Part shown: piece after piece, positions 18,766 to 39,531 of the stretch
How positions within the stretch are numbered: the first letter of the stretch is position 1
Layout of the letters: the number at the start of each line of letters is the position of its first letter
DNA from: a virus
Length of the DNA: 64,000 bases
IMG/VR virus record: IMGVR_UViG_3300035210_000189
Span: 62,001-126,000 of that record
Direction: 5' to 3' (one strand)
Program-made: the position numbers and the translations under genes
The notes under the pieces: generated by a model
The model's database searches: none
The model's input: only the letters and a program-made list of their open reading frames with translations
What the model was told of the DNA's origin: nothing

Positions 18766-19338
18766 ATGATTAAAAAATTAAAATATATGGCGTTATTGGG
18801 TTTATTCTCTGGCGTTTGCTTTGCTCAACAACCCAACAAGATTGAGCAGCAAGACATTAAAGCGATTGGTGATTTTCTACGAGGACAATCAGGATTACGA
18901 ATAGGATCGATTATTAATACCAGCACGTATGAACCGCTTAACAAGCTAGGTTATTTCACACTCAAACCAGCAAAAGAAATATATCCTTTTACTCGCTATG
19001 AAATAGGTGTTACACCAATTAGCCAACAGCTCTACACCTTTTATCTGGAAGGTCAATCGCCTAATTGCCAGAAAGACAACATAACCTTCAGAACCTTTAT
19101 TGATAAACGTTTTGGTCACCCTGTTCAAACGCATTTCAATCCAGCCGATGAATCAAATATGGTTTTTATGTTGCAAGAACCCACAGCCGGTACCAATAAT
19201 TTACTCATGTATTCCTGTGATACAGTGACTAATAAGACGTTCATCTATTATTATCGAGAACACTTAACCAATGTATTTAACAATGAAGTCACTGCTTGGT
19301 ATGCTAAGCAATTGGATGACACAACAGCTTCTAAATAA
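18766..19338 (+). CDS. exported protein of unknown function
   Basis: A 190-residue protein with signal peptide M-I-K-K-L-K...G-V-C-F-A. ATG 18766 follows AGGAG; an upstream in-frame ATG lies in the promoter region (TTGAGG-TATACT). Two mature cysteines near residues 104 and 148 may pair. No recognised fold. Confidence 0.75.
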   Translation: MIKKLKYMALLGLFSGVCFAQQPNKIEQQDIKAIGDFLRGQSGLRIGSIINTSTYEPLNKLGYFTLKPAKEIYPFTRYEIGVTPISQQLYTFYLEGQSPNCQKDNITFRTFIDKRFGHPVQTHFNPADESNMVFMLQEPTAGTNNLLMYSCDTVTNKTFIYYYREHLTNVFNNEVTAWYAKQLDDTTASK

Positions 19339-19341
19339 TTG

Positions 19342-19370
19342 TTGACTTTCAATGGCTCTTTTGTTAATAT
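19342..19370 (+). promoter_or_regulatory. promoter of tRNA-like RNA
   Basis: TTGACT, 17-base spacer, TAATAT. The expected start, 19377, is the first base of the RNA's acceptor-like stem. Confidence 0.75.
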
Positions 19371-19376
19371 GGAACC

Positions 19377-19474
19377 ACTAGGTAGAGATGACGATGCAAT
19401 CGCCTCACAGCAAGGTTAGATCATCTTTAGGTTCAGCGGCGATTGGCGGGGTTCGAAGCCCCGATCTAGTGTGA
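19377..19474 (+). ncRNA. tRNA-like RNA lacking a canonical D-arm
   Basis: ACTAGGT (19377-19383) pairs with ATCTAGT (19464-19470) as an acceptor stem. It is directly joined to a perfect T-arm, CGGGG TTCGAAG CCCCG (19447-19463). The D and anticodon arms are replaced by an eight-pair helix CAATCGCC (19397-19404)/GGCGATTG (19438-19445); AGATGA (19386) could also pair with TCATCT (19421) in a pseudoknot. CCA is not encoded after the stem. Own promoter and terminator. Could be a decayed tRNA or a tRNA mimic. Confidence 0.6.
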
Positions 19475-19503
19475 GGCTTACGATTATGTAAGCCTTTTTT
19501 TTT
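19475..19503 (+). terminator. intrinsic terminator of tRNA-like RNA
   Basis: GGCTTAC/GTAAGCC stem with six-base loop followed by nine T residues. Confidence 0.9.
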
Positions 19504-19513
19504 GGAGAAAATT

Positions 19514-20140
19514 ATGGAACAAGCGAACACTCATTATTTTAAAGCGATGATTATCGTTCTATTGCTTGCTCTTATTTCTTTTTGTATCAATGCGGCTGTT
19601 ATCAATCCTTTTGAAACATTGCCTTTCTTCTTTTTAATCCTTTTGGCTGTTGCTGCTGGATTGTCTGTTCTGGTGTTGTTTAAGTCCCGTCAATATTTAA
19701 TCATTACTGATGGTGTTAGCCTTCTTAAAATGGGTGTTTCATTAGTTCTAGCCATCGTATTCTTCTCTTCTATCATGTCTATCTTTAATCCACAGATTAA
19801 AAGTTTGCTTGTGGCTAAAAAATATGATGACTATTATGTTCAGATTGCTGAACAAGACCGTTATCAGCCTGCTTACTATTACTTTGCCGTTGGACGACAA
19901 AAGAATAATGAAAAATACTTAGTCAATTTTGAAAAAAATAATGTGATGCGGAACTTTACCTACCTTTCGGATGAAGCATTGGCCCAATTAACAACCTATA
20001 TTAAAACATCCAGAGATAAGAACCTTATCAAACTGTATGAAGATCTGAATAAAGATAATCGCCTTAACTTGATGGAAGTTGCTCAAATCATGGATTTTAT
20101 TAATAAATTTGGAGTTCATAATGAAAAACCGCCTTTCTAA
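19514..20140 (+). CDS. three-helix membrane protein
   Basis: A 208-residue protein with membrane helices near residues 10-33, 37-58 and 67-92 and a soluble, probably cytosolic, C-terminal half rich in Tyr and Lys. Starts at ATG 19514 after GGAG. Its end overlaps the next gene by 20 bases. Function unknown. Confidence 0.75.
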   Translation: MEQANTHYFKAMIIVLLLALISFCINAAVINPFETLPFFFLILLAVAAGLSVLVLFKSRQYLIITDGVSLLKMGVSLVLAIVFFSSIMSIFNPQIKSLLVAKKYDDYYVQIAEQDRYQPAYYYFAVGRQKNNEKYLVNFEKNNVMRNFTYLSDEALAQLTTYIKTSRDKNLIKLYEDLNKDNRLNLMEVAQIMDFINKFGVHNEKPPF

Positions 20141-20396
20141 ACGTATCAAGACGCTTTATAAAAAAATTGAACATGTCTTTCCAACTGATGAAGAAAAAGA
20201 GCCTTGTCCACAATGTGGTGGCTGTATGAGACATCGTATCAGTCAAGACAGTGGCATGTCAGCCGAAGCTAAATTTGGTTGCATTAAATGTCATTACACT
20301 GAATTTCGTGGGGGGACTGGCAGTGAAATCTGGTTGGAAAAGATTTATCACGCTCGACAAAAAAGTCCTTTTTTAAGAAGATTGTATTTCAGTTAA
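20121..20396 (+). CDS. small zinc-ribbon protein
   Basis: A 91-residue basic protein with a C4-type zinc ribbon: C-P-Q-C-G-G-C at about residues 29-35 and C-I-K-C-H at about 54-58. GGAG precedes the ATG and the gene lies inside the end of the membrane protein gene, so they are coupled. Probably binds nucleic acid or protein; not known which. Confidence 0.75.
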   Translation: MKNRLSKRIKTLYKKIEHVFPTDEEKEPCPQCGGCMRHRISQDSGMSAEAKFGCIKCHYTEFRGGTGSEIWLEKIYHARQKSPFLRRLYFS

Positions 20397-20448
20397 CAAA
20401 AAAATAGCGTATACTACAACTCACACCTTACATTCATGGAGATTTACT

Positions 20449-20793
20449 ATGGGAAATAAAAATAAACCACAACGTTTTGAAGGCTTCTGGTGGTCCGAGC
20501 GTGAACCACACTTTCCAAAACCAGTCAGTTCCGATGTCGCTTTTGAAGGTAAAGAAGCTGTAATCGTGGCTCTTGAAAAACTTGAAAAAGATATTTACCT
20601 GCATAAAGACCGGGCAGGTACTTGTGTCTACTTTAAAGGATTTTCTATTTGCCGCTGCTGTGGTGCTGAAAACGGAGATATGGAGTTTTCCTACAAGAAC
20701 TGGAAGTGGCCGGTTGGTTTGTCTCACTATGTTAAAGTCCACAACATCAAGCCATCTGATGACTTCTTGAAAGATGTTCTTCACATTGGTTAA
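20449..20793 (+). CDS. small Cys-rich protein
   Basis: A 114-residue protein with C-R-C-C-G-A-E near residue 68, possibly half of a zinc site, and several Trp residues (F-W-W-S, N-W-K-W-P). TGGAGATTTACT precedes the ATG and TATACT lies about 40 bases upstream. Function unknown. Confidence 0.7.
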   Translation: MGNKNKPQRFEGFWWSEREPHFPKPVSSDVAFEGKEAVIVALEKLEKDIYLHKDRAGTCVYFKGFSICRCCGAENGDMEFSYKNWKWPVGLSHYVKVHNIKPSDDFLKDVLHIG

Positions 20794-20882
20794 ACTTTGA
20801 CCAGATTTAGACTTTAACTTAAAAAAACTTGAATTGCTGTCCTCAGAATGGTATAATAACTTATCATTTTGAGGGCAAACAC

Positions 20883-21686
20883 ATGACCACTAAAACTTAT
20901 GAAATTGTTGTACAAACCAACCAAGACCTTAGTGAAATTTATGAGGCTATCGGTGGTTACATTACGGGTCATGCTAAACGAAAAGAGTCTTGTGAAGGCG
21001 ATTATCCGTATGGCACAGATGATGTGATGGCAAACTATGCGGCTAAAACAAAAGATACAAACATCTATTACAATTGGTGGTGTAAAAATGCTTGCTTTAA
21101 AGGTGCATACAACGACACACCTTTTGATCTGATTACGGGTGTTCAGGCATTCCATGACAGTAATTTTCCACGTATCATTTTTTCTGATCATGAATCCGAT
21201 TCAGAAGTTCGAGCTAAAATCAAGGATCAATTTTTCAAAAAATTTAATGTGATTGTTGATACAATCGACAATTCCACTTTGATTGATGAAGTAAAAGTTC
21301 GTATTGATTCTGATGCCTTTACTGAACAATATTCTCGCAAATATTGCTATGAATTGTTGAAAGAATATGAAATGCATGAAAAGATGTTCTCAGGTTATGT
21401 TATCAACAAGGTTAATGTAGATACCAATGTAGGCGTGAAGAGTGCAATTACTTTCTATGTAAATTCAGCCCCCAAGAATACAGAAGAATTCCTTGATAAT
21501 TTAATGAGTCGTATTGAGGATTTGGTTAAAGACTATAACCAAATGATGGTTTTGTCAGAAATGGAGAAATACTGTTTCTATACAGAGACAATTGAAGACG
21601 TTCTTGAATTCCCTAAGAACTTTCAAATTGTGGGTGTTGATTTGATTGAACATGTTACCGAGTCGAGAACCATTCAACTGACTTAA
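20883..21686 (+). CDS. unknown cytosolic protein
   Basis: A 267-residue protein beginning at ATG 20883 behind GAGGGC; TATAAT lies 30 bases upstream. Mixed alpha/beta composition, no signal peptide. No domain recognised. Followed by a strong terminator. Confidence 0.7.
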   Translation: MTTKTYEIVVQTNQDLSEIYEAIGGYITGHAKRKESCEGDYPYGTDDVMANYAAKTKDTNIYYNWWCKNACFKGAYNDTPFDLITGVQAFHDSNFPRIIFSDHESDSEVRAKIKDQFFKKFNVIVDTIDNSTLIDEVKVRIDSDAFTEQYSRKYCYELLKEYEMHEKMFSGYVINKVNVDTNVGVKSAITFYVNSAPKNTEEFLDNLMSRIEDLVKDYNQMMVLSEMEKYCFYTETIEDVLEFPKNFQIVGVDLIEHVTESRTIQLT

Positions 21687-21702
21687 ATTTATTGTAATAA
21701 AA

Positions 21703-21729
21703 GAAACCCAACCAAGTGTTGGGTTTTTT
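21703..21729 (+). terminator. intrinsic terminator
   Basis: AACCCAAC/GTTGGGTT stem then T-run. Confidence 0.9.
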
Positions 21730-21781
21730 ATTGAACATTCATTTGTACGATGGTATACTGGATGACATTTTGGAGAATTAC

Positions 21782-22480
21782 ATGTATTACATTAATGAAT
21801 ATTTTGGACCTACCTTTGTTGTAAAGCAATTGCCAACACGTATGAAAATTACGGTGACTGAAAAAGTTCATGAAACTTGTGGCAATAAATTGTGTACAGC
21901 TTATGGTGATAGAGGCTTCTTTGATTCATTTTGTCCGCATTGTGGTTCTCGTTGCAGCACCTTTAACATTGAGAAAAAGCGTAATGTATTTGTGAGTGAT
22001 GTTAGTAAAGAAATGGATGATATTCTTATTTACCCTTTTAATGATATTCCAGAAGGGGATTTAATTTTTATTCCAAAGTTTTCGAATGAAGGCTGGTTGA
22101 CACCGCTCACTAAACAACATATTATTTTCAAGTATCTTGTTAGAAAATGTCAGAATCAAGATTGTAATAATTTAGATTATGATATTAACTTCGACCATGT
22201 TTACTGTTCTGGGTGTGGTGTTAAGGCTGAATGTCAGGTAGATGAAAAATACGATTCGAATTTTACTAAAGACACTGCCAAACTATTAAACACATACTCA
22301 GATAAGCATGCATTTAAATCATTTGAACGTCCATTTGATGTTAATAAGGAAGTAGATGAAAATTTGACAGCCTTTAAACAGTTAAAAGAAGCCCAAGAGA
22401 TTGTTGAGCTGCTTGACTCTATTTATGGTGACGGTGCAACAAGTATTCAGAATAGACAAGTTAACTTTTTTGACAATTAA
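21782..22480 (+). CDS. protein with two zinc ribbons
   Basis: A 232-residue protein with two C4 ribbons: C-G-N-K-L-C...C-P-H-C-G-S-R-C (about residues 31-58) and C-Q-N-Q-D-C...C-S-G-C-G (about 124-148). ATG 21782 follows TGGAG and a TATACT box. Sits directly before the methyltransferase-like gene, with 17 bases between, so both are probably one operon. May be a DNA- or RNA-binding partner. Confidence 0.75.
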   Translation: MYYINEYFGPTFVVKQLPTRMKITVTEKVHETCGNKLCTAYGDRGFFDSFCPHCGSRCSTFNIEKKRNVFVSDVSKEMDDILIYPFNDIPEGDLIFIPKFSNEGWLTPLTKQHIIFKYLVRKCQNQDCNNLDYDINFDHVYCSGCGVKAECQVDEKYDSNFTKDTAKLLNTYSDKHAFKSFERPFDVNKEVDENLTAFKQLKEAQEIVELLDSIYGDGATSIQNRQVNFFDN

Positions 22481-22497
22481 ACCAATAGGCACACACA

Positions 22498-23508
22498 ATG
22501 ACTTCGGAACGCGATCTTGACCAATTTTATACCAACAATGATATAGCTCTTAAATGCTATGACTTGTTGCAAGGTATTCTTACCCAACACAATATCAAAC
22601 CTACCATCTGGCTAGAACCCTCAGCGGGATCAGGTGCGTTCTTTTCTATTGTGTCTGGTAGTAAATTGGGCATTGATATTGATCCGAAGATTGACAAAGT
22701 GGTGAAAGCTGACTTTTTAGAATACCCATTACAAGATGAAGGCTATATCACTATCGGAAACCCACCATTTGGGAAGAATTCTAGTTTAGCCATTAAGTTC
22801 TTCAACAAATGTGCAGAAGTGTCCAAAGTGGTTGCTTTCATTGTTCCGAAGACATTCAAGAAAGACAGTGTGCAAAAGAAGCTGCATAAAAATATGCACC
22901 TTGTTTTTGAATGGGATGTGCCGAGTAATTCATTTAATATCAAAAAAGAAGTCGTTGACGTTCCTTGTGTGTTTCAAGTATGGATTAAACAAGATGAGTT
23001 ACGTCATGACACTAATAAAAGCTCTCTGGCGGAAGATTTTATCTTTACTAATAGAAAGACTGCAGATATTGCCTTTCAACGAGTCGGAGTAAAAGCAGGA
23101 ACGATTAAAGGGTGTGCGGCCTTTCCAGACATTGCTGATGCATCTCACTTATTTATTACGACAACAAAACCTGATGTTGCAAAGATCTTGAAAGTCATTG
23201 ACTGGTCAGCTATCAAATTTAACACGGCGGGCAATCCCAGCATTTCAAAACGAGAGCTGATTAACGAATACGCTCGTTATAAGTCTAGCCTTATTCATAT
23301 TATTGATGATTATTTGTTGTTTGATTTTGATGGTGTTATTTCAATTGTGTTTGTCGTGAATGGGAATGTGTTCAACATTAAAATTGAAAACAACAATATT
23401 GTGTTCCATGATTCTATTTTTAAAGTTCAAATTGGCAATGTTGACTTCAACTTGTCAAAAGGTGTCTATCTTGATTTGAAAAACACATTGAATGGAAAAA
23501 TTTCTTAA
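22498..23508 (+). CDS. DNA adenine-N6 methyltransferase-like protein
   Basis: A 336-residue class I SAM-dependent methyltransferase. Motif I is L-E-P-S-A-G-S-G-A-F-F (about residues 39-49) and motif IV is G-N-P-P-F-G-K (about 86-92), the N-P-P-[FY] signature of N6-adenine enzymes. Residues beyond 170 form a distinct C-terminal domain that may give specificity. No restriction endonuclease is adjacent. It could be an orphan anti-restriction methylase or act on RNA. Confidence 0.85.
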   Translation: MTSERDLDQFYTNNDIALKCYDLLQGILTQHNIKPTIWLEPSAGSGAFFSIVSGSKLGIDIDPKIDKVVKADFLEYPLQDEGYITIGNPPFGKNSSLAIKFFNKCAEVSKVVAFIVPKTFKKDSVQKKLHKNMHLVFEWDVPSNSFNIKKEVVDVPCVFQVWIKQDELRHDTNKSSLAEDFIFTNRKTADIAFQRVGVKAGTIKGCAAFPDIADASHLFITTTKPDVAKILKVIDWSAIKFNTAGNPSISKRELINEYARYKSSLIHIIDDYLLFDFDGVISIVFVVNGNVFNIKIENNNIVFHDSIFKVQIGNVDFNLSKGVYLDLKNTLNGKIS

Positions 23509-23526
23509 AAATGTTTAAAAAAAAGG

Positions 23527-23555
23527 TTGCCTTATGGAAAAAGGTTTGATAGAAT
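23527..23555 (+). promoter_or_regulatory. promoter of tRNA-Cys
   Basis: TTGCCT, 17-base spacer, TAGAAT. A leader hairpin CATTGA (23561)/TCAATG (23587) precedes the tRNA; a near-identical promoter and leader precedes the RNA at 26587. Confidence 0.75.
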
Positions 23556-23601
23556 ATCTACATTGAAACAGCAAAGCGACACGCTCTCAATGATGTAATA
23601 T

Positions 23602-23675
23602 GGCTTCTTGGCAGAATGGTCATGCACCGGATTGCAAATCCGAGTACGGGGATTCGATTTCCTCAGAAGCCTCCA
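23602..23675 (+). tRNA. tRNA-Cys (anticodon GCA)
   Basis: A 74-nt tRNA with encoded CCA. The acceptor is GGCTTCT/AGAAGCC with discriminator T, as in bacterial tRNA-Cys. Anticodon stem CGGA/TCCG with loop TTGCAAA gives GCA. T-arm is GGGGA TTCGATT TCCTC. The D-stem is short (GCA/TGC). Transcribed with a 40-base hairpin leader that must be removed. Confidence 0.93.
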
Positions 23676-23683
23676 ATTTAAAT

Positions 23684-23709
23684 AAAAGACATCTTATGAT
23701 GTCTTTTTT
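23684..23709 (+). terminator. intrinsic terminator after tRNA-Cys
   Basis: AAGACATC/GATGTCTT stem with T-run; may also act on the opposing gene. Confidence 0.85.
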
Positions 23710-23724
23710 ATTGCCTTTAATTTT

Positions 23725-24252
23725 TCACTTGTTTTCAATTTCTTCTGTTTTTTCTAATACCATTGTTACCTTCTCATCACTACTTTTAAGATTAACCGTC
23801 TGTACTGCATATTCTGGCTTATTCATTTCTTCATAAAGATAGTAAGCAATCCCACCACTCAAACCACCTTTCCTTGCCATATCAGATTCAATGAGGTGTT
23901 TAGCTTTCACAATGGCTGGATGATTAATGTCATCAAACAAGTCAGAAAGCTTTCCTTTGTAAATCATGTTATCAAATGTAATGGCTTTCATATTTTTAAA
24001 ATCATAAATGACCATAATTATTAAAATTAATGGGATGGAGACTGCAGCATATATGCCCATTAAATAAATATACCAATGTGGAATTAAAAATAATGGGAGA
24101 ACCAACGCGGTCAACATGACAATCATTGGAGCGATTAAAAACATCGTCACCTTGAAGTATTTTGAATTTCTTTTTTTATCATATTCTTCTGGATTTCTTT
24201 TAAAATATTCGAAATTTTTTATAAATTCTTTTTTTGCTAATTTGTCTTTCAT
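23725..24252 (-). CDS. two-helix membrane protein
   Basis: A 175-residue protein with a basic N-terminus (residues 1-30), two membrane helices at about 32-53 and 58-83, and a cytosolic helical tail ending in acidic residues. AAGGAAGGTG precedes the start. Function unknown. Confidence 0.75.
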   Translation of the reverse strand: MKDKLAKKEFIKNFEYFKRNPEEYDKKRNSKYFKVTMFLIAPMIVMLTALVLPLFLIPHWYIYLMGIYAAVSIPLILIIMVIYDFKNMKAITFDNMIYKGKLSDLFDDINHPAIVKAKHLIESDMARKGGLSGGIAYYLYEEMNKPEYAVQTVNLKSSDEKVTMVLEKTEEIENK

Positions 24253-24415
24253 AGTATTTCACCTTCCTTTTAATTATCCTATTATTTTATGGTTAAAATG
24301 TCAATCGACTATCCATTTGCATATAGTTTTGAATATGAAAAAACATAAAATTTGTTGTCATTGATTCTTATATGTGTTAGAATAAGGCATCAATTAAGCT
24401 TCATAGGTGAATATA

Positions 24416-24565
24416 ATGCCCAAAATTTCTATCGAGCAGATTAGATCTGCCAACCAAAAACTCATCGCAGGTAAGCCTTATGATGTTAAACCATATTCAG
24501 ATAAGCTTTCCAAACAAGACATCAATGAGATGTTAAAGAAAGCTTTCTATTCAATCTCTCACTAA
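24416..24565 (+). CDS. 49-residue unknown protein
   Basis: Small basic helical protein opening with P-K-I-S-I-E-Q-I-R-S-A-N-Q-K-L. Start follows TAGGTGAATATA; stop is 12 bases before the next start, with that gene's GGAGGT site in between. Probably the first gene of a two-gene transcript. Confidence 0.65.
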   Translation: MPKISIEQIRSANQKLIAGKPYDVKPYSDKLSKQDINEMLKKAFYSISH

Positions 24566-24577
24566 GTGGAGGTCACT

Positions 24578-24904
24578 ATGACCAAGCAAAAAGTTTTCGA
24601 ATCTATTTTTAATGCTGAAGGTAATTTCGTGGTGCTTGGTTATGACCCACATTATTGCCAAGCAGACAATCCATCTCACATGGCATTGCATCATATTCTT
24701 TTTGATGCCGATGGAAATCTCAATGAAGAATTGGATGGTAATCTGACTGATGACATTCAAGATCTTGGTGAATACATTGAAGAACAGTCCAAAAACAACC
24801 CTTCATTTGGCCCGCTGTGTGATGCTGTTCATCTTTACTTTGCTGAAATGGCTTCCAGTGCTACCAACCAACAATATTCTGTAGCGAGTCTCTTTAAGCG
24901 TTAA
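24578..24904 (+). CDS. unknown acidic protein
   Basis: A 108-residue acidic protein with a strong GGAGGT ribosome site; an in-frame GTG 12 bases earlier lies on that site and is rejected. No known motif. Confidence 0.7.
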   Translation: MTKQKVFESIFNAEGNFVVLGYDPHYCQADNPSHMALHHILFDADGNLNEELDGNLTDDIQDLGEYIEEQSKNNPSFGPLCDAVHLYFAEMASSATNQQYSVASLFKR

Positions 24905-24985
24905 GTCTTATAGAAATATTTATTTTCTAGGCGTCTTTTGATGTCTTGATTAGTCATTATAATTAAACATTGTGAGGATACATTG

Positions 24986-25921
24986 ATGAAAGAAGCCTAT
25001 TTCGAACAATTCGGTAAAATATTCTGTAATGATCATGAAAATTTTATTCAACATTTGAAGGATACTAAGTTTTATAAAGAAATTAAAAACAAAAAATATA
25101 ATAATGACGATTTGAAATCTTATATTTCTAATAAAGAATATAATGGTGTCTCCTATATTATTCAATTGAGAAATACACCGTTCTCCAAACCATTGACTAT
25201 TTATTCAGGTAAATCTGATTATTTTACGTCTAAGAGTGAATATGTATCTAGTCTTAGTCGATTATTTTCGATTGACATGCGAGTCATTGAGATTTCCAAA
25301 AATTTTGCGGTTAAAGATGCATTTAAAAAATTAGGGATTGAAGAATCACATGAAGTCCCCAATGTGCTTTCCGTCAGTGATATGGATGGTATGAAACAAT
25401 TTTTTATTGATGCTAACTATGAATTAGGTGTCAATAATTTTGATAAACTCATTGAAGATTACAGTGAATATGATGACGAATTTCTGAGTAAGCTCAGTTT
25501 TATTTGTGATATGCATAGCCATAAAAAGTTTAGTAAAAAAATGATGTTAAATGACAGCTATCATTATATTAAATGTGATGTTGCAGATAAGGAAGTGTTT
25601 TCGTATTCCAATGATGCTTCGGATGACTACTTCTTTATTTTTGAACGAGACATTCATACAAAAAATATTCGTGTCTTCTTTGACTTCATGAGCAATGTCG
25701 ATAAAACAAAATTTAAGTTTTCAACCTGTGTGGTTGGTAATCATCCAAAAATTGTTCATGATTACTTGGAAAATAAAACACCTTGCTTTATTTCCTCAGA
25801 AGGTAATACAAAAGTGATTAAAAACACTCAAACCTACCTGCTTGATGATATGGAATATATTGCTGCTAACTTAGCTGAACGCTTAAAAGTGACATTACCC
25901 TCTGAGTTCTCGATATTTTGA
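24986..25921 (+). CDS. unknown 311-residue protein
   Basis: A cytosolic Lys/Asp/Phe-rich protein. ATG 24986 is chosen over the adjacent TTG because GAGGATACATTG gives good spacing. No domain recognised. The short RNA segment after it contains hairpins and a terminator. Confidence 0.7.
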   Translation: MKEAYFEQFGKIFCNDHENFIQHLKDTKFYKEIKNKKYNNDDLKSYISNKEYNGVSYIIQLRNTPFSKPLTIYSGKSDYFTSKSEYVSSLSRLFSIDMRVIEISKNFAVKDAFKKLGIEESHEVPNVLSVSDMDGMKQFFIDANYELGVNNFDKLIEDYSEYDDEFLSKLSFICDMHSHKKFSKKMMLNDSYHYIKCDVADKEVFSYSNDASDDYFFIFERDIHTKNIRVFFDFMSNVDKTKFKFSTCVVGNHPKIVHDYLENKTPCFISSEGNTKVIKNTQTYLLDDMEYIAANLAERLKVTLPSEFSIF

Positions 25922-25929
25922 CAATGGAT

Positions 25930-26034
25930 TCAAGTGCTATCCGTTAGCCGTATTTGAAGGCTAGTTTAAGTGTTAATTAGGTAGAGCAATCTAGCATTAA
26001 TTTAAAGACATCTTCTGGTGTCTTTTCTTTTTTT
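25930..26034 (+). ncRNA. structured 3' region with terminator
   Basis: After the stop at 25921 there is a TAGCC/GGCTA hairpin, then TTAAT/ATTAA enclosing a smaller TAGA/TCTA stem, and a terminator (AAGACA/TGTCTT, about 26004-26030). Probably the structured 3' end of the preceding transcript. Confidence 0.4.
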
Positions 26035-26092
26035 TATTATTGATTATTCGATTATCTAATATACAATATATTAATAATAATGAGGCTATAAT

Positions 26093-26491
26093 ATGAAAAT
26101 AAATGAAGAATGGATTACTGAAGTTACTCGAATTAATGGTCTATACCAAGAATTTAAAGGCAGTGTATTATTGTTTCAAAATACCCGTGTTGTAAAAGCA
26201 TTTCTTAAACGACCATCTTTCATATTTCATAAGCTGTATCGTAGCTCGCCTGCCATGTTCGAAAAAGAGATTGAACAATTTAAAAAATTAGATACAAGCC
26301 ACTATACATTGACGACCGCCGAGTTGTCTCGTTTTAGTGAGTTGTGTGCAAAAGGTTACTCACCTTTAAATGCAGTTATCTACAAAAATAAAGGCAGCAA
26401 GAGCTATTTAACAACGATTAAAACAAAAAGAAAACGTATGCATTTAGGGTTGGCTATTGTCCTCACCCCTTTTTTTGGATACCTACGTTAA
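26093..26491 (+). CDS. unknown basic protein
   Basis: A 132-residue basic protein; the last 15 residues (L-G-L-A-I-V-L-T-P-F-F-G-Y) are hydrophobic after a K-T-K-R-K-R-K-type cluster, which could be a membrane-touching tail. GAGGC lies eight bases before ATG. Function unknown. Confidence 0.65.
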   Translation: MKINEEWITEVTRINGLYQEFKGSVLLFQNTRVVKAFLKRPSFIFHKLYRSSPAMFEKEIEQFKKLDTSHYTLTTAELSRFSELCAKGYSPLNAVIYKNKGSKSYLTTIKTKRKRMHLGLAIVLTPFFGYLR

Positions 26492-26509
26492 AAAAATTAA
26501 AAAAAGGTC

Positions 26510-26538
26510 TTGAATACGGTTGAAAGGTTTGCTAGAAT
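26510..26538 (+). promoter_or_regulatory. promoter of tRNA-like RNA (26587)
   Basis: TTGAAT, 17-base spacer, TAGAAT, followed by leader hairpin ACATTGAA (26543)/TTCAATGT (26563). The same promoter and leader design is used by tRNA-Cys. Confidence 0.75.
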
Positions 26539-26586
26539 GGCTACATTGAATGAGACGACAGCTTCAATGTCACTCAGAATTGTAAC

Positions 26587-26708
26587 GCGGGTGTGTGAGT
26601 GTAATAGGAGAGTTGGCCTTCCGTCCTTGAATAAAGGTTGCTCTACCGTTAAGGCGTGCGTGCCTTGCAACATCGGTAACGTAGGTTCAAATCCTGCCAT
26701 CTGCACCA
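26587..26708 (+). ncRNA. tRNA-like RNA with enlarged 5' half and encoded CCA
   Basis: The 3' end is a normal tRNA end: GTAGG TTCAAAT CCTGC, CATCTGC, A, CCA (26681-26708). GCGGGTG at 26587-26593 pairs with CATCTGC using two wobbles. Leader length to 26587 equals that of tRNA-Cys, supporting this 5' end. Between them are about 88 bases, far more than a D plus anticodon arm. Helix TACCG (26644)/CGGTA (26674) encloses AAGGC/GCCTT with loop GTGCGT; GTTGC (26637)/GCAAC (26667) would make a pseudoknot. Confidence 0.6.
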
Positions 26709-26716
26709 AATTGTTG

Positions 26717-26745
26717 TTGTGTTGAAACTTGTTTTATGCTACAAT
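26717..26745 (+). promoter_or_regulatory. promoter of odd-loop tRNA
   Basis: TTGTGT, 17-base spacer, TACAAT. The 5' leader then holds a long hairpin (TTAAC...GTTAA, 26761-26790, with GAAATG/CATTTC) and a second, weaker one before the tRNA. Confidence 0.65.
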
Positions 26746-26839
26746 GATTTAAGTTGAGAATTAACCGAAATGCTGGATCATTTCTGTTAAAAGTAGGTGA
26801 TTCAGGTAGACCTAGCTTCTTCTCTTACTCTGAACCAAT

Positions 26840-26913
26840 CGGTGAAACGCTCAAATGGTGAGCAAATGGTGTTGTAACCATACTCGTGGGTTCAAGTCCT
26901 ACTTCACCGGCCA
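26840..26913 (+). tRNA. tRNA with non-standard anticodon loop, identity uncertain
   Basis: A 74-nt tRNA with CCA: acceptor CGGTGAA/TTCACCG, discriminator G, D-arm GCTC AAATGGT GAGC, T-arm GTGGG TTCAAGT CCTAC. The anticodon hairpin cannot form five pairs plus a seven-base loop. It is either ATGGT/ACCAT with six-base loop GTTGTA, or ATGG/CCAT with eight-base loop TGTTGTAA. Possible anticodons are UGU (Thr) or GUU (Asn; discriminator G fits Asn). An eight-base loop could read four bases. Confidence 0.7.
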
Positions 26914-26919
26914 AATTAC

Positions 26920-26948
26920 TTGATTGTTGTGATGACTTGTGGTATAAT
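26920..26948 (+). promoter_or_regulatory. promoter of RNA unit 1
   Basis: TTGATT, 17-base spacer, TATAAT; expected start about 26955. Confidence 0.75.
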
Positions 26949-26954
26949 CATCCC

Positions 26955-27210
26955 ATCAAACGAATTCGGAGCCTTCGCCATAGAGGGTTGGACAGCAGCG
27001 GTGTCGCGGGCAAGCTGTCACGAAAGGTGAGAATCAACTCCCTTTCATAGTAATGAAGTGCATCAGAGATGAGTTTTTCTCTTGATTAAAACGCTTGGGT
27101 GAAGCGGCCTTTGTTACGAACTTGATTGTCAATTAGCGAAGGAATTATAGTCCTAGTGGCTATGATTAAAACGGTTAGGTGGACTGGCCTTCGTTAAGAC
27201 CAAATTAAAA
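26955..27210 (+). ncRNA. repeated structured RNA, unit 1 (two three-way-junction modules)
   Basis: Begins with AAACGAATTCGGAG. Helix GACAGC (26991)/GCTGTC (27014) caps a conserved loop AGCGGTG...CGGGC. A second hairpin AAAGG (27023)/CCTTT (27041) follows. Next come two copies of a module: GTAATGAAG (27050)/CTTTGTTAC (27109), and AGCGAAGG (27135)/CCTTCGTT (27188). Each encloses one hairpin, the string GATTAAAAC, and a five-pair hairpin with loop [GA]GGTG. Unit 2 repeats the design with compensating base changes. RNA class not recognised. Confidence 0.7.
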
Positions 27211-27212
27211 GG

Positions 27213-27241
27213 TTGTTATTTACAGGTGGTTGATGTATAAT
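27213..27241 (+). promoter_or_regulatory. promoter of RNA unit 2
   Basis: TTGTTA, 17-base spacer, TATAAT; expected start about 27248. Confidence 0.75.
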
Positions 27242-27247
27242 AGCGGT

Positions 27248-27460
27248 CAGTTAAACGAATACGGAGAACCACTTAAATGGTTCTGAATGGTAGCGGTGGT
27301 CGGGCGAGCCATTGTAAGAAGGAGAGGTGATTTCTTAGTCCCTCTCTTAGCAACAAGGGCATTGTGGGTGCTGTTTTCCTCGATTAAAACGGTTGGGCGA
27401 ACCGGCTCTTGTTGCAAACCCTATTCCAAAGAGTTGTCGATGACAGCTTTTTTTCTTTTT
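27248..27460 (+). ncRNA. repeated structured RNA, unit 2 (one three-way-junction module)
   Basis: Begins AAACGAATACGGAG like unit 1. It has hairpin GAACC/GGTTC (27266-27283), helix AATGG (27286)/CCATT (27309) with loop TAGCGGTGGTCGGGCGAG, hairpin GAGAGG (27322)/CCTCTC (27341), and module stem GCAACAAG (27350)/CTTGTTGC (27408). The module encloses GATTAAAAC (27382) and hairpin CGGTT GGGCG AACCG. It ends in terminator GTTGTC/GACAGC plus T-run (27433-27460). Base changes relative to unit 1 preserve pairing. Confidence 0.72.
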
Positions 27461-27479
27461 AACAGTGATGGAGATTGTC

Positions 27480-27692
27480 ATGATTGAGAATAACGAATTT
27501 GCAACTGAGTATGCTGGTCAGCTTGTTTCTTACCTGACGGCTGAGCAACGACAAGCTGTCTTTGCTCATATTGAAACGTTGTTTGATAAAGATGCCATTG
27601 CTTGTATGAAGGCTGATGCTCAGCAGATTGTTGAAATGCGTGCGGATATGGATCGTCGTCTTGCTGCAATGGACGCAAAAACAGCAGTATAA
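27480..27692 (+). CDS. small helical protein within RNA island
   Basis: A 70-residue acidic, helical protein (about half Ala, Glu, Asp, Met). ATG 27480 follows TGGAGATTGTC, the common leader here; an in-frame GTG 15 bases upstream is rejected. It lies just after the terminator of RNA unit 2 and just before a tRNA-like RNA, with no strong promoter of its own, so read-through or processing is likely. Function unknown. Confidence 0.65.
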   Translation: MIENNEFATEYAGQLVSYLTAEQRQAVFAHIETLFDKDAIACMKADAQQIVEMRADMDRRLAAMDAKTAV

Positions 27693-27707
27693 GCTACACC
27701 TTTTTAT

Positions 27708-27782
27708 TGCCGAATAATCATAGGGGAAGCAGGTAACTGTGTAATCTATGATGTCGTAGGCTAGTCCCTACTTCGGCGGCCA
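27708..27782 (+). ncRNA. tRNA-sized RNA with CCA and a single long arm
   Basis: Seventy-five bases ending in encoded CCA. TGCCGAA (27708) pairs with TTCGGCG (27772), discriminator G. T-stem GTAGG/CCTAC has a six-base loop CTAGTC that lacks the usual TTCRA. In place of the D and anticodon arms is one seven-pair helix, ATCATAG (27717)/CTATGAT (27746), with a 22-base loop containing CAG-GTAA-CTG. It cannot be a working canonical tRNA; it resembles RNAs at 19377 and 26587. Confidence 0.55.
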
Positions 27783-27787
27783 GATTT

Positions 27788-28010
27788 GCTGTAGGCTCTT
27801 GTAGCCTGTCCGACCGGGTTGTGACCGGGCAGAACCAGACGGTTCCCACCTTTGGGTGGAGTCGATAAGGCATAGGTAATCGGTTCCTATTACAGTGATG
27901 AATTTTAGAAAGAAGAAGTTAAAAAGACGAAGATAAAAAGATGAAGATGTAATTGCAAGCGGCTTGAACCGTGCGAAGAAAGAGGAAAGGCTTACGTTCC
28001 TACTTGCAAC
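27788..28010 (+). ncRNA. structured RNA: four-way and three-way junctions
   Basis: After hairpin AGGCT/AGCCT (27793-27807), CGAC (27811)/GTCG (27861) encloses three hairpins: CGG/CCG (27815-27827), GAACC/GGTTC (27832-27845) and CCACC/GGTGG (27846-27859). ATAGG/CCTAT follows at 27872-27890. A purine-rich linker (about 27905-27950) leads to TTGCAAG (27953)/CTTGCAA (28003), which encloses CGG/CCG and AGGAA/TTCCT hairpins. No open reading frame explains this. RNA class not recognised. Confidence 0.55.
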
Positions 28011-28060
28011 TTTTAATTAAACTTAAAGAGAGATATAGATTATGCCTACATACGAGAGAA

Positions 28061-28111
28061 TCTGGACACGATTATAAAATGTTAACCCTAGGAGGGTCAA
28101 TTATGTCCAGA
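28061..28111 (+). promoter_or_regulatory. ribosome-site sequestering structure
   Basis: TCTGGACA (28061-28068) is the exact complement of TGTCCAGA (28104-28111), which contains part of the start codon at 28103. Inside, ACCCT (28085)/AGGGT (28093) with loop AGG traps the AGGAGGG ribosome site (28090-28096). Both elements would block translation of the 56-residue gene until opened by ligand, protein, cleavage or temperature. Confidence 0.65.
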
Positions 28112-38326: not shown

Positions 38327-39531
38327 GAATCCCCCTTCCTTCAGGTAGGGGATGAATTTCAACCATGCTCTTGACTTTTGTTATTTTCTCAATATAATCA
38401 ACCACATGATTAAAACATTCCAATATAAAATTAAAACTGGGAAGATTAATTCTTCCGATTGTCGCTGGCTTTCTCAAAAAGCCAGTTCCATTAACTATAT
38501 CTGGAATTATTGCAACGATGCCCAAAAGCATAAACTTAAATGGGACAGTCAAAAAAAGTGGTTAAGTGGTTTTGATCTTAGTTCCATGTGCGGTGGTGTA
38601 TCAAAAGAAATTGGCTTACATTCACAAACAGTCCAAGCTGTTTGTGAAGAGTATGCCAATAAACGCAAAGCAAAGAAAAAAGCCTATTTACGTTATCGTA
38701 GTTATAAAAAATCACTGGGTTGGATTCCTTTTAAAACAACGGGAATTAAGTTTGATCCTGATAATCAATCTTTTACCTATCAAAAACGTGAGTTTAAAGT
38801 GTGGTATAGGCGTGAGATTCCGGCTGATACCAAGATTAAAAGTGGTAGTTTCTGCCAAGATAATTTAGGCCATTGGTACATCAACATCGTTGTTGATATA
38901 CCCGAGGTTAAACGCACTCAAAAACCGACTGCAGAAGTGGGTATTGACCTTGGCTTAAAAGATTTAGCTGTTCTTTCGGATGGGAAAGTCATTCCTATCT
39001 TCAAATACTATCGAAAAAACGAGAAAAGACTTGGATTGGCTCAACGAGCCAATAAGAAAGGTCAAGTTAAAAAAATACACAAGAAAATTGCTAATTCACG
39101 AAAAGATTCAGCGTTTAAAATCGCTAATGATCTTGTGAAAAATTACGCTTTAATTGTGGTAGGAAACGTGAGTCCATCAAAACTTGGTAAAACCAAAATG
39201 GCTAAGTCAGTTTATGATGCAGGTTGGACACTTCTAAAAAAGCAGGTTGAGTATTTAGCGATTACGCACCAATCCGTATTTTTAGAAGTGAATGAAAGTT
39301 TTACAACCCAAGCTTGTTCGTCTTGTGGAAATAGGACGGGGCCGAAAGGCTTAAAAGATCTTGGAATAAGAGAATGGAAATGCCCAGTATGCAATACTGT
39401 TCATGACAGAGATGTAAACTCTGCGAAAAACATTCTCCGTATCGGACATGATACGCTAGAAGTAGGAATCCCCTTCCTTACCGCCTAACGGCGGCAAACA
39501 TTTTTAATGTTTGAGGTGGGGAGGATGTCAA
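38327..39531 (+). mobile_element. IS200/IS605-type element carrying only tnpB
   Basis: Left end starts with GAATCCCCC and hairpin ATCCCC/GGGGAT (38329-38353). The right end after the tnpB stop has CCGCC/GGCGG (39481-39494) and AAACAT/ATGTTT hairpins. GAATCCCC followed by TTCCTT occurs at both ends. There is no tnpA, so it would need one in trans. Ends are placed by restoring the interrupted frame; an exact A-run makes them uncertain by a few bases. The right end should encode the guide RNA scaffold. Confidence 0.8.
38406..39488 (+). CDS. tnpB: TnpB RNA-guided nuclease (IS605 OrfB family)
   Basis: A 360-residue TnpB, start placed at M-I-K-T-F-Q-Y-K. It has an N-terminal basic region, RuvC motif I G-I-D-L-G-L-K-D-L, zinc finger C-S-S-C-G...C-P-V-C (about residues 306-328), and final RuvC Asp in D-R-D-V-N-S-A-K-N. 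The second RuvC motif reads V-V-G-N-V-S, where most TnpBs have E-D/N-L; this variant is widespread, and a Glu in E-V-N-E-S-F may substitute. Known family role is RNA-guided DNA cleavage favouring element retention. Confidence 0.92.
   Translation: MIKTFQYKIKTGKINSSDCRWLSQKASSINYIWNYCNDAQKHKLKWDSQKKWLSGFDLSSMCGGVSKEIGLHSQTVQAVCEEYANKRKAKKKAYLRYRSYKKSLGWIPFKTTGIKFDPDNQSFTYQKREFKVWYRREIPADTKIKSGSFCQDNLGHWYINIVVDIPEVKRTQKPTAEVGIDLGLKDLAVLSDGKVIPIFKYYRKNEKRLGLAQRANKKGQVKKIHKKIANSRKDSAFKIANDLVKNYALIVVGNVSPSKLGKTKMAKSVYDAGWTLLKKQVEYLAITHQSVFLEVNESFTTQACSSCGNRTGPKGLKDLGIREWKCPVCNTVHDRDVNSAKNILRIGHDTLEVGIPFLTA

Follow-up and report, generated by a model that had tools for sequence, protein, structure and literature searches.

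A previously undescribed tRNA-shaped RNA with a pseudoknot core, carried in single copy by large uncultivated phages

What kind of RNA keeps the acceptor stem and T-arm of a transfer RNA (tRNA) but has no regular D and anticodon arms? The question is raised by three loci in the window, a stretch of 64,000 nucleotides (nt) that spans positions 62,001-126,000 of the 152-kilobase (kb) uncultivated phage record IMGVR_UViG_3300035210_000189. A sequence-only reading had grouped them as one family and had suggested that they load synthetases or EF-Tu, serve as bait for anticodon nucleases, or are decayed tRNAs. The loci are element A (19376-19471), TL1 (26587-26708) and TL3 (27708-27782), in window coordinates. 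The first of them, A, founds a previously undescribed RNA family, with one copy in each large phage that carries it.

The coordinates and pairings first described for the three loci are correct. When the window is scanned for a T-arm of five base pairs (bp) with a TTCRA loop together with a 7-bp acceptor, five hits result; 19377-19474 and 26587-26708 are among them, and two others are ARAGORN tRNAs. In random first-order Markov sequences of 64 kb the mean is 0.18 hits (maximum 2), or 0.01 with CCA, and thus the T-arm and acceptor pairings of the loci exceed chance. TL3 has, as originally described, a 7-bp acceptor followed by G-CCA and a 6-nt T-like loop without TTCRA, and TL1 and TL3 both encode CCA. 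In the window, ARAGORN reports only tRNA-Leu and tRNA-Cys. It calls none of the three loci, in line with the view of them as tRNA-like RNAs that escape tRNA tools.

Element A is an RNA of about 96 nt with an 8-bp acceptor stem, a T-arm with a TTCRA loop, and a pseudoknot that replaces the D and anticodon arms. The acceptor, first described with seven pairs, comprises 8 bp (19376-19383 with 19464-19471), and the pseudoknot formed by AGATGA (19386-19391) and TCATCT (19421-19426) had been overlooked. The core reads AATCGCC-TCACAGNAAGG...AGC-GGCGATT. In the proposed fold, the strand that follows the acceptor, S1, would pair with the loop of a second helix, P2, which would in turn abut the T-stem, giving the pseudoknot. 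In the lineage of the window, A has a predicted promoter and a predicted terminator of its own.

A search for the same shapes in related phages, suggested along with the first description, reveals that A is widespread. A DNA search detects it in each of the five near relatives, including a 437-kb phage (G003), where only 77 nt align, and pattern scans place it in seven further, mutually unrelated lineages of large phages, mostly within tRNA clusters. These lineages are L084 (a 292-kb record), L085, L086 (249 kb), L090, L092 (which has the identical copies L105 and L108), L100 and L102; all members are metagenomic contigs of uncultivated phages. For instance, in L086 A lies 5 nt upstream of a tRNA-Val on the same strand. 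In L092, a tRNA of about 145 nt according to Rfam (165-301), with an internal insertion, begins shortly after A. Other pattern matches (L083, L087-L089 and most of L091-L109) are chance matches and not members, and a scan of genome contigs for the A pattern returned only chance matches in coding sequence.

A covariance model built from seven A sequences, R1, recovers the held-out L085, L086 and L090 at 57, 71 and 46 bits, respectively. Members score at least 46 bits and the best non-members, which are ordinary tRNAs, at most 26, and A is found in one copy per record. In the window, R1 detects only 19376-19471, plus a weak match to tRNA-Leu; it finds neither TL1 nor TL3, and the idea that the three loci form one family therefore does not hold. 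The phages that carry A are unrelated, since DNA similarity among them is limited to tRNAs and A, except for the pair of the window and G003, and no protein family is common to all nine A-carrying records compared, several of which are fragments (the widest family is in six). The copy of A in the relative G002 has 90-92% identity to that of the window, and the adjoining protein 58%. No DNA match to the window regions tested was found in 50,697 phage records, blastn gave no match to the A core in INPHARED phages, R1 found no A in nine whole cultured-phage records (best 26 bits), and no description of the motif was found in open-access papers. Among candidate partner proteins, the most widely shared is the RNA ligase PF09414, which occurs in eight of the nine A-carrying records, yet also in six of nine tRNA-rich cultured phages without A, and was rejected as unspecific; RtcB occurs in one of the nine. 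Reassignment of a stop codon was also discarded, as there is no sign of it in G000 and G003 and elsewhere no rise in coding density is peculiar to a single stop codon.

The acceptor, the T-stem and S1 vary in sequence yet remain paired across the lineages of A. The S1 pairs are AGATGA/TCATCT, CCATGG/TCATGG, TCATGCA/TGCATGA, ACCTCAG/CTGGGGT, GCACCT/AGGTGC, GTCTTGC/GCAAGAT, CCCAGC/GCTGGG and ACCCTGC/GCAGGGT; with segment boundaries set by hand, pairing is 100%, against 48% after swapping strands between members. For the acceptor, pairing is 93%, against 50% in the swapped-strand control. In the 437-kb phage, TATTGGAT/GTCCGATA takes the place of the window acceptor CACTAGGT/ATCTAGTG and still forms 8 bp, and AGATGACG, AATCGCCTCACAG, AGATCATCTT and AGCGGCGATT are identical to the window. 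In alignment A2, 97% of the pairs are standard and nine show changes on both sides; none of 500 shuffles is as good, and slid controls collapse. RNAalifold, run without a given structure, agrees on three helices: acceptor, P2 and T. Most lineages have one and the same sequence for P2 and its loop L2, an invariance that stems in part from the patterns used in the search, and no P2 variants came to light when the outer P2 pairs were left free in a scan. This invariance argues for recognition, but it leaves the putative P2 pairing without support from covariation.

CCA is encoded in none of 12 A copies, compared with 44 of 47 tRNAs in seven loci (the window, its relatives, L084 and L085). The TTCRA T-loop is kept in all ten lineages, and loop 3 has GG in every one of them, which, from its sequence, could stand in for G18-G19 at the elbow. 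The third acceptor pair varies (T-A, G-C, T-G, A-T and G-T), with no constant G3-U70. Could A then be a tRNA that has decayed or been remodelled and lost all function? It has tRNA ends, other phages carry it in their tRNA clusters, and the neighbouring TL3 is a clear case of decay. Nevertheless, the core of A is invariant in unrelated phages while the acceptor covaries, and its best alignment to a tRNA scores 57, whereas shuffled sequence reaches up to 64, so that no derivation from tRNA is detectable. This explanation was already disfavoured and is scarcely credible.

Rfam has no match in window 19300-19550 even at an E of 5, no member of A has a D-arm or a 7-nt anticodon loop with U33, and the L086 copy scores 17.5 bits with the tRNA model RF00005, whose gathering threshold is 29. 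A resembles phage tRNAs in its acceptor, T-arm and location in clusters, but differs from them in the lack of D-arm, anticodon loop and CCA, in the absence of an Rfam match for the window copy, and in its invariant pseudoknot core. As the anticodon loop is absent from all lineages, A was rejected as an intron-bearing tRNA or anticodon bait, and the suggested role as bait for anticodon nucleases is unlikely; so is the loading of synthetases, because there is neither CCA nor a constant acceptor pair for aminoacylation. The mascRNA-menRNA family (RF01684), which is likewise tRNA-shaped and non-decoding, gives 14-17 bits in two members, below its cut-off of 42.5, and differs from A in core, host domain and topology. 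The tRNA-like structures of plant viruses are also tRNA-shaped and non-decoding, and differ in the same three respects.

The best architectural comparison, as the sequence-only reading had proposed, is the tRNA-like domain of transfer-messenger RNA (tmRNA; RF00023), which has an acceptor and T-arm, no anticodon arm and a helix abutting the T-stem. By analogy, A might mimic this domain and occupy SmpB or EF-Tu, so that trans-translation would be blocked or redirected in the infected cell; of the rival explanations, this is the most concrete. ARAGORN labels the L100 copy a tmRNA, RF00023 matches that copy weakly, at 12 bits, and phage-encoded tmRNAs are known (PMC9004378; Enterococcus phage iF6). 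However, 12 bits is far below the cut-off of 47, the window copy has no RF00023 match, and R1 matches the Enterococcus phage tmRNA in the T-arm only. In addition, a tmRNA-type tag frame after the resume-like GCC is not conserved, its length going from two codons to no stop. Unlike tmRNA, A measures only about 96 nt, lacks an mRNA-like part, a conserved tag frame, CCA and G3-U70, and has a pseudoknot that joins the D region and the P2 loop. Membership of the tmRNA family was thus rejected on the RF00023 score and the unconserved frame, and mimicry directed at SmpB or EF-Tu seems decidedly unlikely.

What A does can be proposed with moderate confidence: it is probably a single-copy, trans-acting tRNA mimic whose ends would be matured by tRNA-processing enzymes and whose invariant core would be the working part. 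RNase P, like other factors that act on tRNA, recognises an acceptor/T-arm unit whose T-loop is normal. The ends of A, with an acceptor of about 8 bp and a normal T-loop, could let RNase P-type enzymes excise it from phage tRNA transcripts, and its packing inside such transcripts in other phages implies excision; alternatively, as in the window, A may be transcribed alone off its own promoter. These ends would also confer stability and a tRNA-like outline. The P2/L2/AGC core then probably binds a single conserved factor, of the host or of the phage, that acts on RNA of tRNA shape, and A would serve as a decoy or adaptor. More tentatively, A could be a widespread accessory of unrelated large phages that is transferred horizontally with tRNA clusters and whose core jams or re-purposes a conserved host component of translation or tRNA quality control. 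A different possibility is that the ends serve only for maturation and stability, and that the core base-pairs or binds a ligand outside tRNA biology. Only the core is invariant, and the acceptor and T-stem keep their shape and not their sequence, as this explanation would have it, but the TTCRA T-loop and the loop-3 GG in all ten lineages exceed the needs of a processing handle, which makes it unlikely.

Several points weigh against a tRNA mimic with a recognised core. The T-stems of L084 and L085 and the acceptor of L085 are imperfect, and the L2 motif is largely missing from L090 and L102. P2 never varies, hence no covariation backs its pairing, and S1 and P2 could perhaps be alternative and not simultaneous. 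The complementarity of L2 to E. coli ribosomal RNA is no better than that of shuffles, the acceptor may serve 3′-end processing only and not mimicry, and each member comes from an uncultivated contig. The fixed core and single copy in phages that share almost no proteins point to a common target in very different infections. Such an RNA would join tmRNA and the tRNA-like structures of viruses as a further compact, tRNA-shaped class, and would give a handle on the reason for tRNA clusters in large phages. As tRNA annotation tools overlook it, the RNA has probably gone unreported in many phage genomes.

The two remaining loci are outside the A family. By its alignment and synteny, TL3 is a decayed tRNA-Asn. 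Among 145 phage tRNAs, it aligns best with the tRNA-Asn(GTT) of the 437-kb relative (72; next 58, shuffled maximum 62). That tRNA lies directly upstream of the MSRSVRGSKG open reading frame, and TL3 is upstream of MSRSVKGSKG at 28103. Thus, TL3 has a normal tRNA as its syntenic homologue, the kind of finding named at the outset as contrary to a family of tRNA-like RNAs. In comparison with this homologue, TL3 has lost the T-loop and the anticodon loop; it retains relics of the Asn anticodon arm, and G002 and G005 have a version reduced to 53 nt. Its acceptor is still paired despite changes on both sides (GCCGAA/TTCGGC, GGTGAA/TTCACC and GGTAAA/TTTACC), so that some processing role may persist. 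Directly 3′ of TL3 there is a conserved structured region (GTAGCCTGTCCGACCGGG..., 27785-27905) that is 90-94% identical in relatives.

TL1 is read as a remodelled tRNA, with tRNA-Leu as its apparent nearest kin. Its best match, the tRNA-Leu(AAG) of L085, scores 86 (shuffled maximum 70) and shares with it a near-identical T-arm, an acceptor with CCA and a variable-arm-like hairpin, whereas in TL1 there is no D-stem and the anticodon-arm loop has expanded, measuring 26 nt and holding an inner hairpin. TL1 is conserved in four near relatives, and is kept only in near relatives. There, the acceptor, the T-stem, a 5-bp anticodon-like stem and the variable-arm-like stem remain paired despite a few changes, the loop of the inner hairpin differs in length, and a second hairpin is absent in two. 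A function is possible. The decay first suggested for all three loci consequently applies to TL3, in part to TL1, and not to A. In Rfam, TL1 and TL3 are unmatched, and the only match in 26400-28100 is a weak tRNA at 26840-26910 (34 bits).

Table 1. Positions of element A, its parts and the other tRNA-related loci in the window
Feature	Position	Strand	Remarks
Promoter of A, TTGACT-17-TAATAT (predicted)	19342..19370	+	Same layout before A in G002 and G003
A, acceptor 5′ strand CACTAGGT	19376..19383	+	Pairs with 19464-19471; covarying 8-bp helix
A, pseudoknot helix S1 5′ strand AGATGA	19386..19391	+	Pairs with 19421-19426; eight S1 sequences, all paired
A, helix P2 5′ strand AATCGCC, invariant	19398..19404	+	Complementary to 19438-19444
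A, conserved loop L2 TCACAGCAAGG	19405..19415	+	
A, S1′ strand TCATCT	19421..19426	+	
A, helix P2 3′ strand, invariant GGCGATT after AGC	19438..19444	+	
A, T-arm CGGGG TTCGAAG CCCCG	19447..19463	+	Covarying stem
A, acceptor 3′ strand ATCTAGTG, no CCA after it	19464..19471	+	
Intrinsic terminator (predicted), immediately 3′ of A	19473..19496	+	
TL1, tRNA-derived RNA	26587..26708	+	Acceptor, T-arm, CCA; no D-arm; 26-nt anticodon-arm loop; variable-arm-like hairpin
tRNA-Asn-like RNA, irregular anticodon loop	26840..26913	+	Weak Rfam tRNA match
TL3, decayed tRNA-Asn	27708..27782	+	Acceptor and G-CCA retained; T-loop and anticodon loop broken

Other RNAs were observed in these records. Irregular anticodon loops like that at 26840-26913 of the window are also seen in clusters at L004 7866-7941 and L085 11786-11859, to which ARAGORN assigns the four-letter anticodons agaa and atga. 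A tRNA with a CTA anticodon and a tiny D-loop, uncalled by ARAGORN and resembling tRNA-Pyl or an amber suppressor, is found at L045 3335-3403, L038 16249-16317, L052 8531, L062 4714 and L075 5541; it occurs in all but one of the six records of the group, that of the window included, and coding density shows no sign that TAG is reassigned. In L006 (12640-12825), and in that relative only, a tRNA-like RNA combines acceptor, T-arm and CCA with about 150 nt of central hairpins.

A separate family of conserved structured RNAs, with the hairpin motif GATTAAAACGnTTgGGyGAAnCGGC and no Rfam match, is present in the window at 26958-27215 and 27255-27419, with three copies of the motif, as well as in L004 (430-590, 610-770 and 11747-11916) and in L007 (393-425); the 437-kb relative has several copies of the motif. 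A short conserved RNA, GCAAGCGGCTTGAACCGT..GAAGAAAGAGGAAAGGCT, is located at 27954-28008 of the window and 6916-6970 of L004; the window thus has it in common with the 437-kb phage, and nearer relatives lack it. Finally, a transposase gene (PHROG 506) occupies 38352-39488 of the window.
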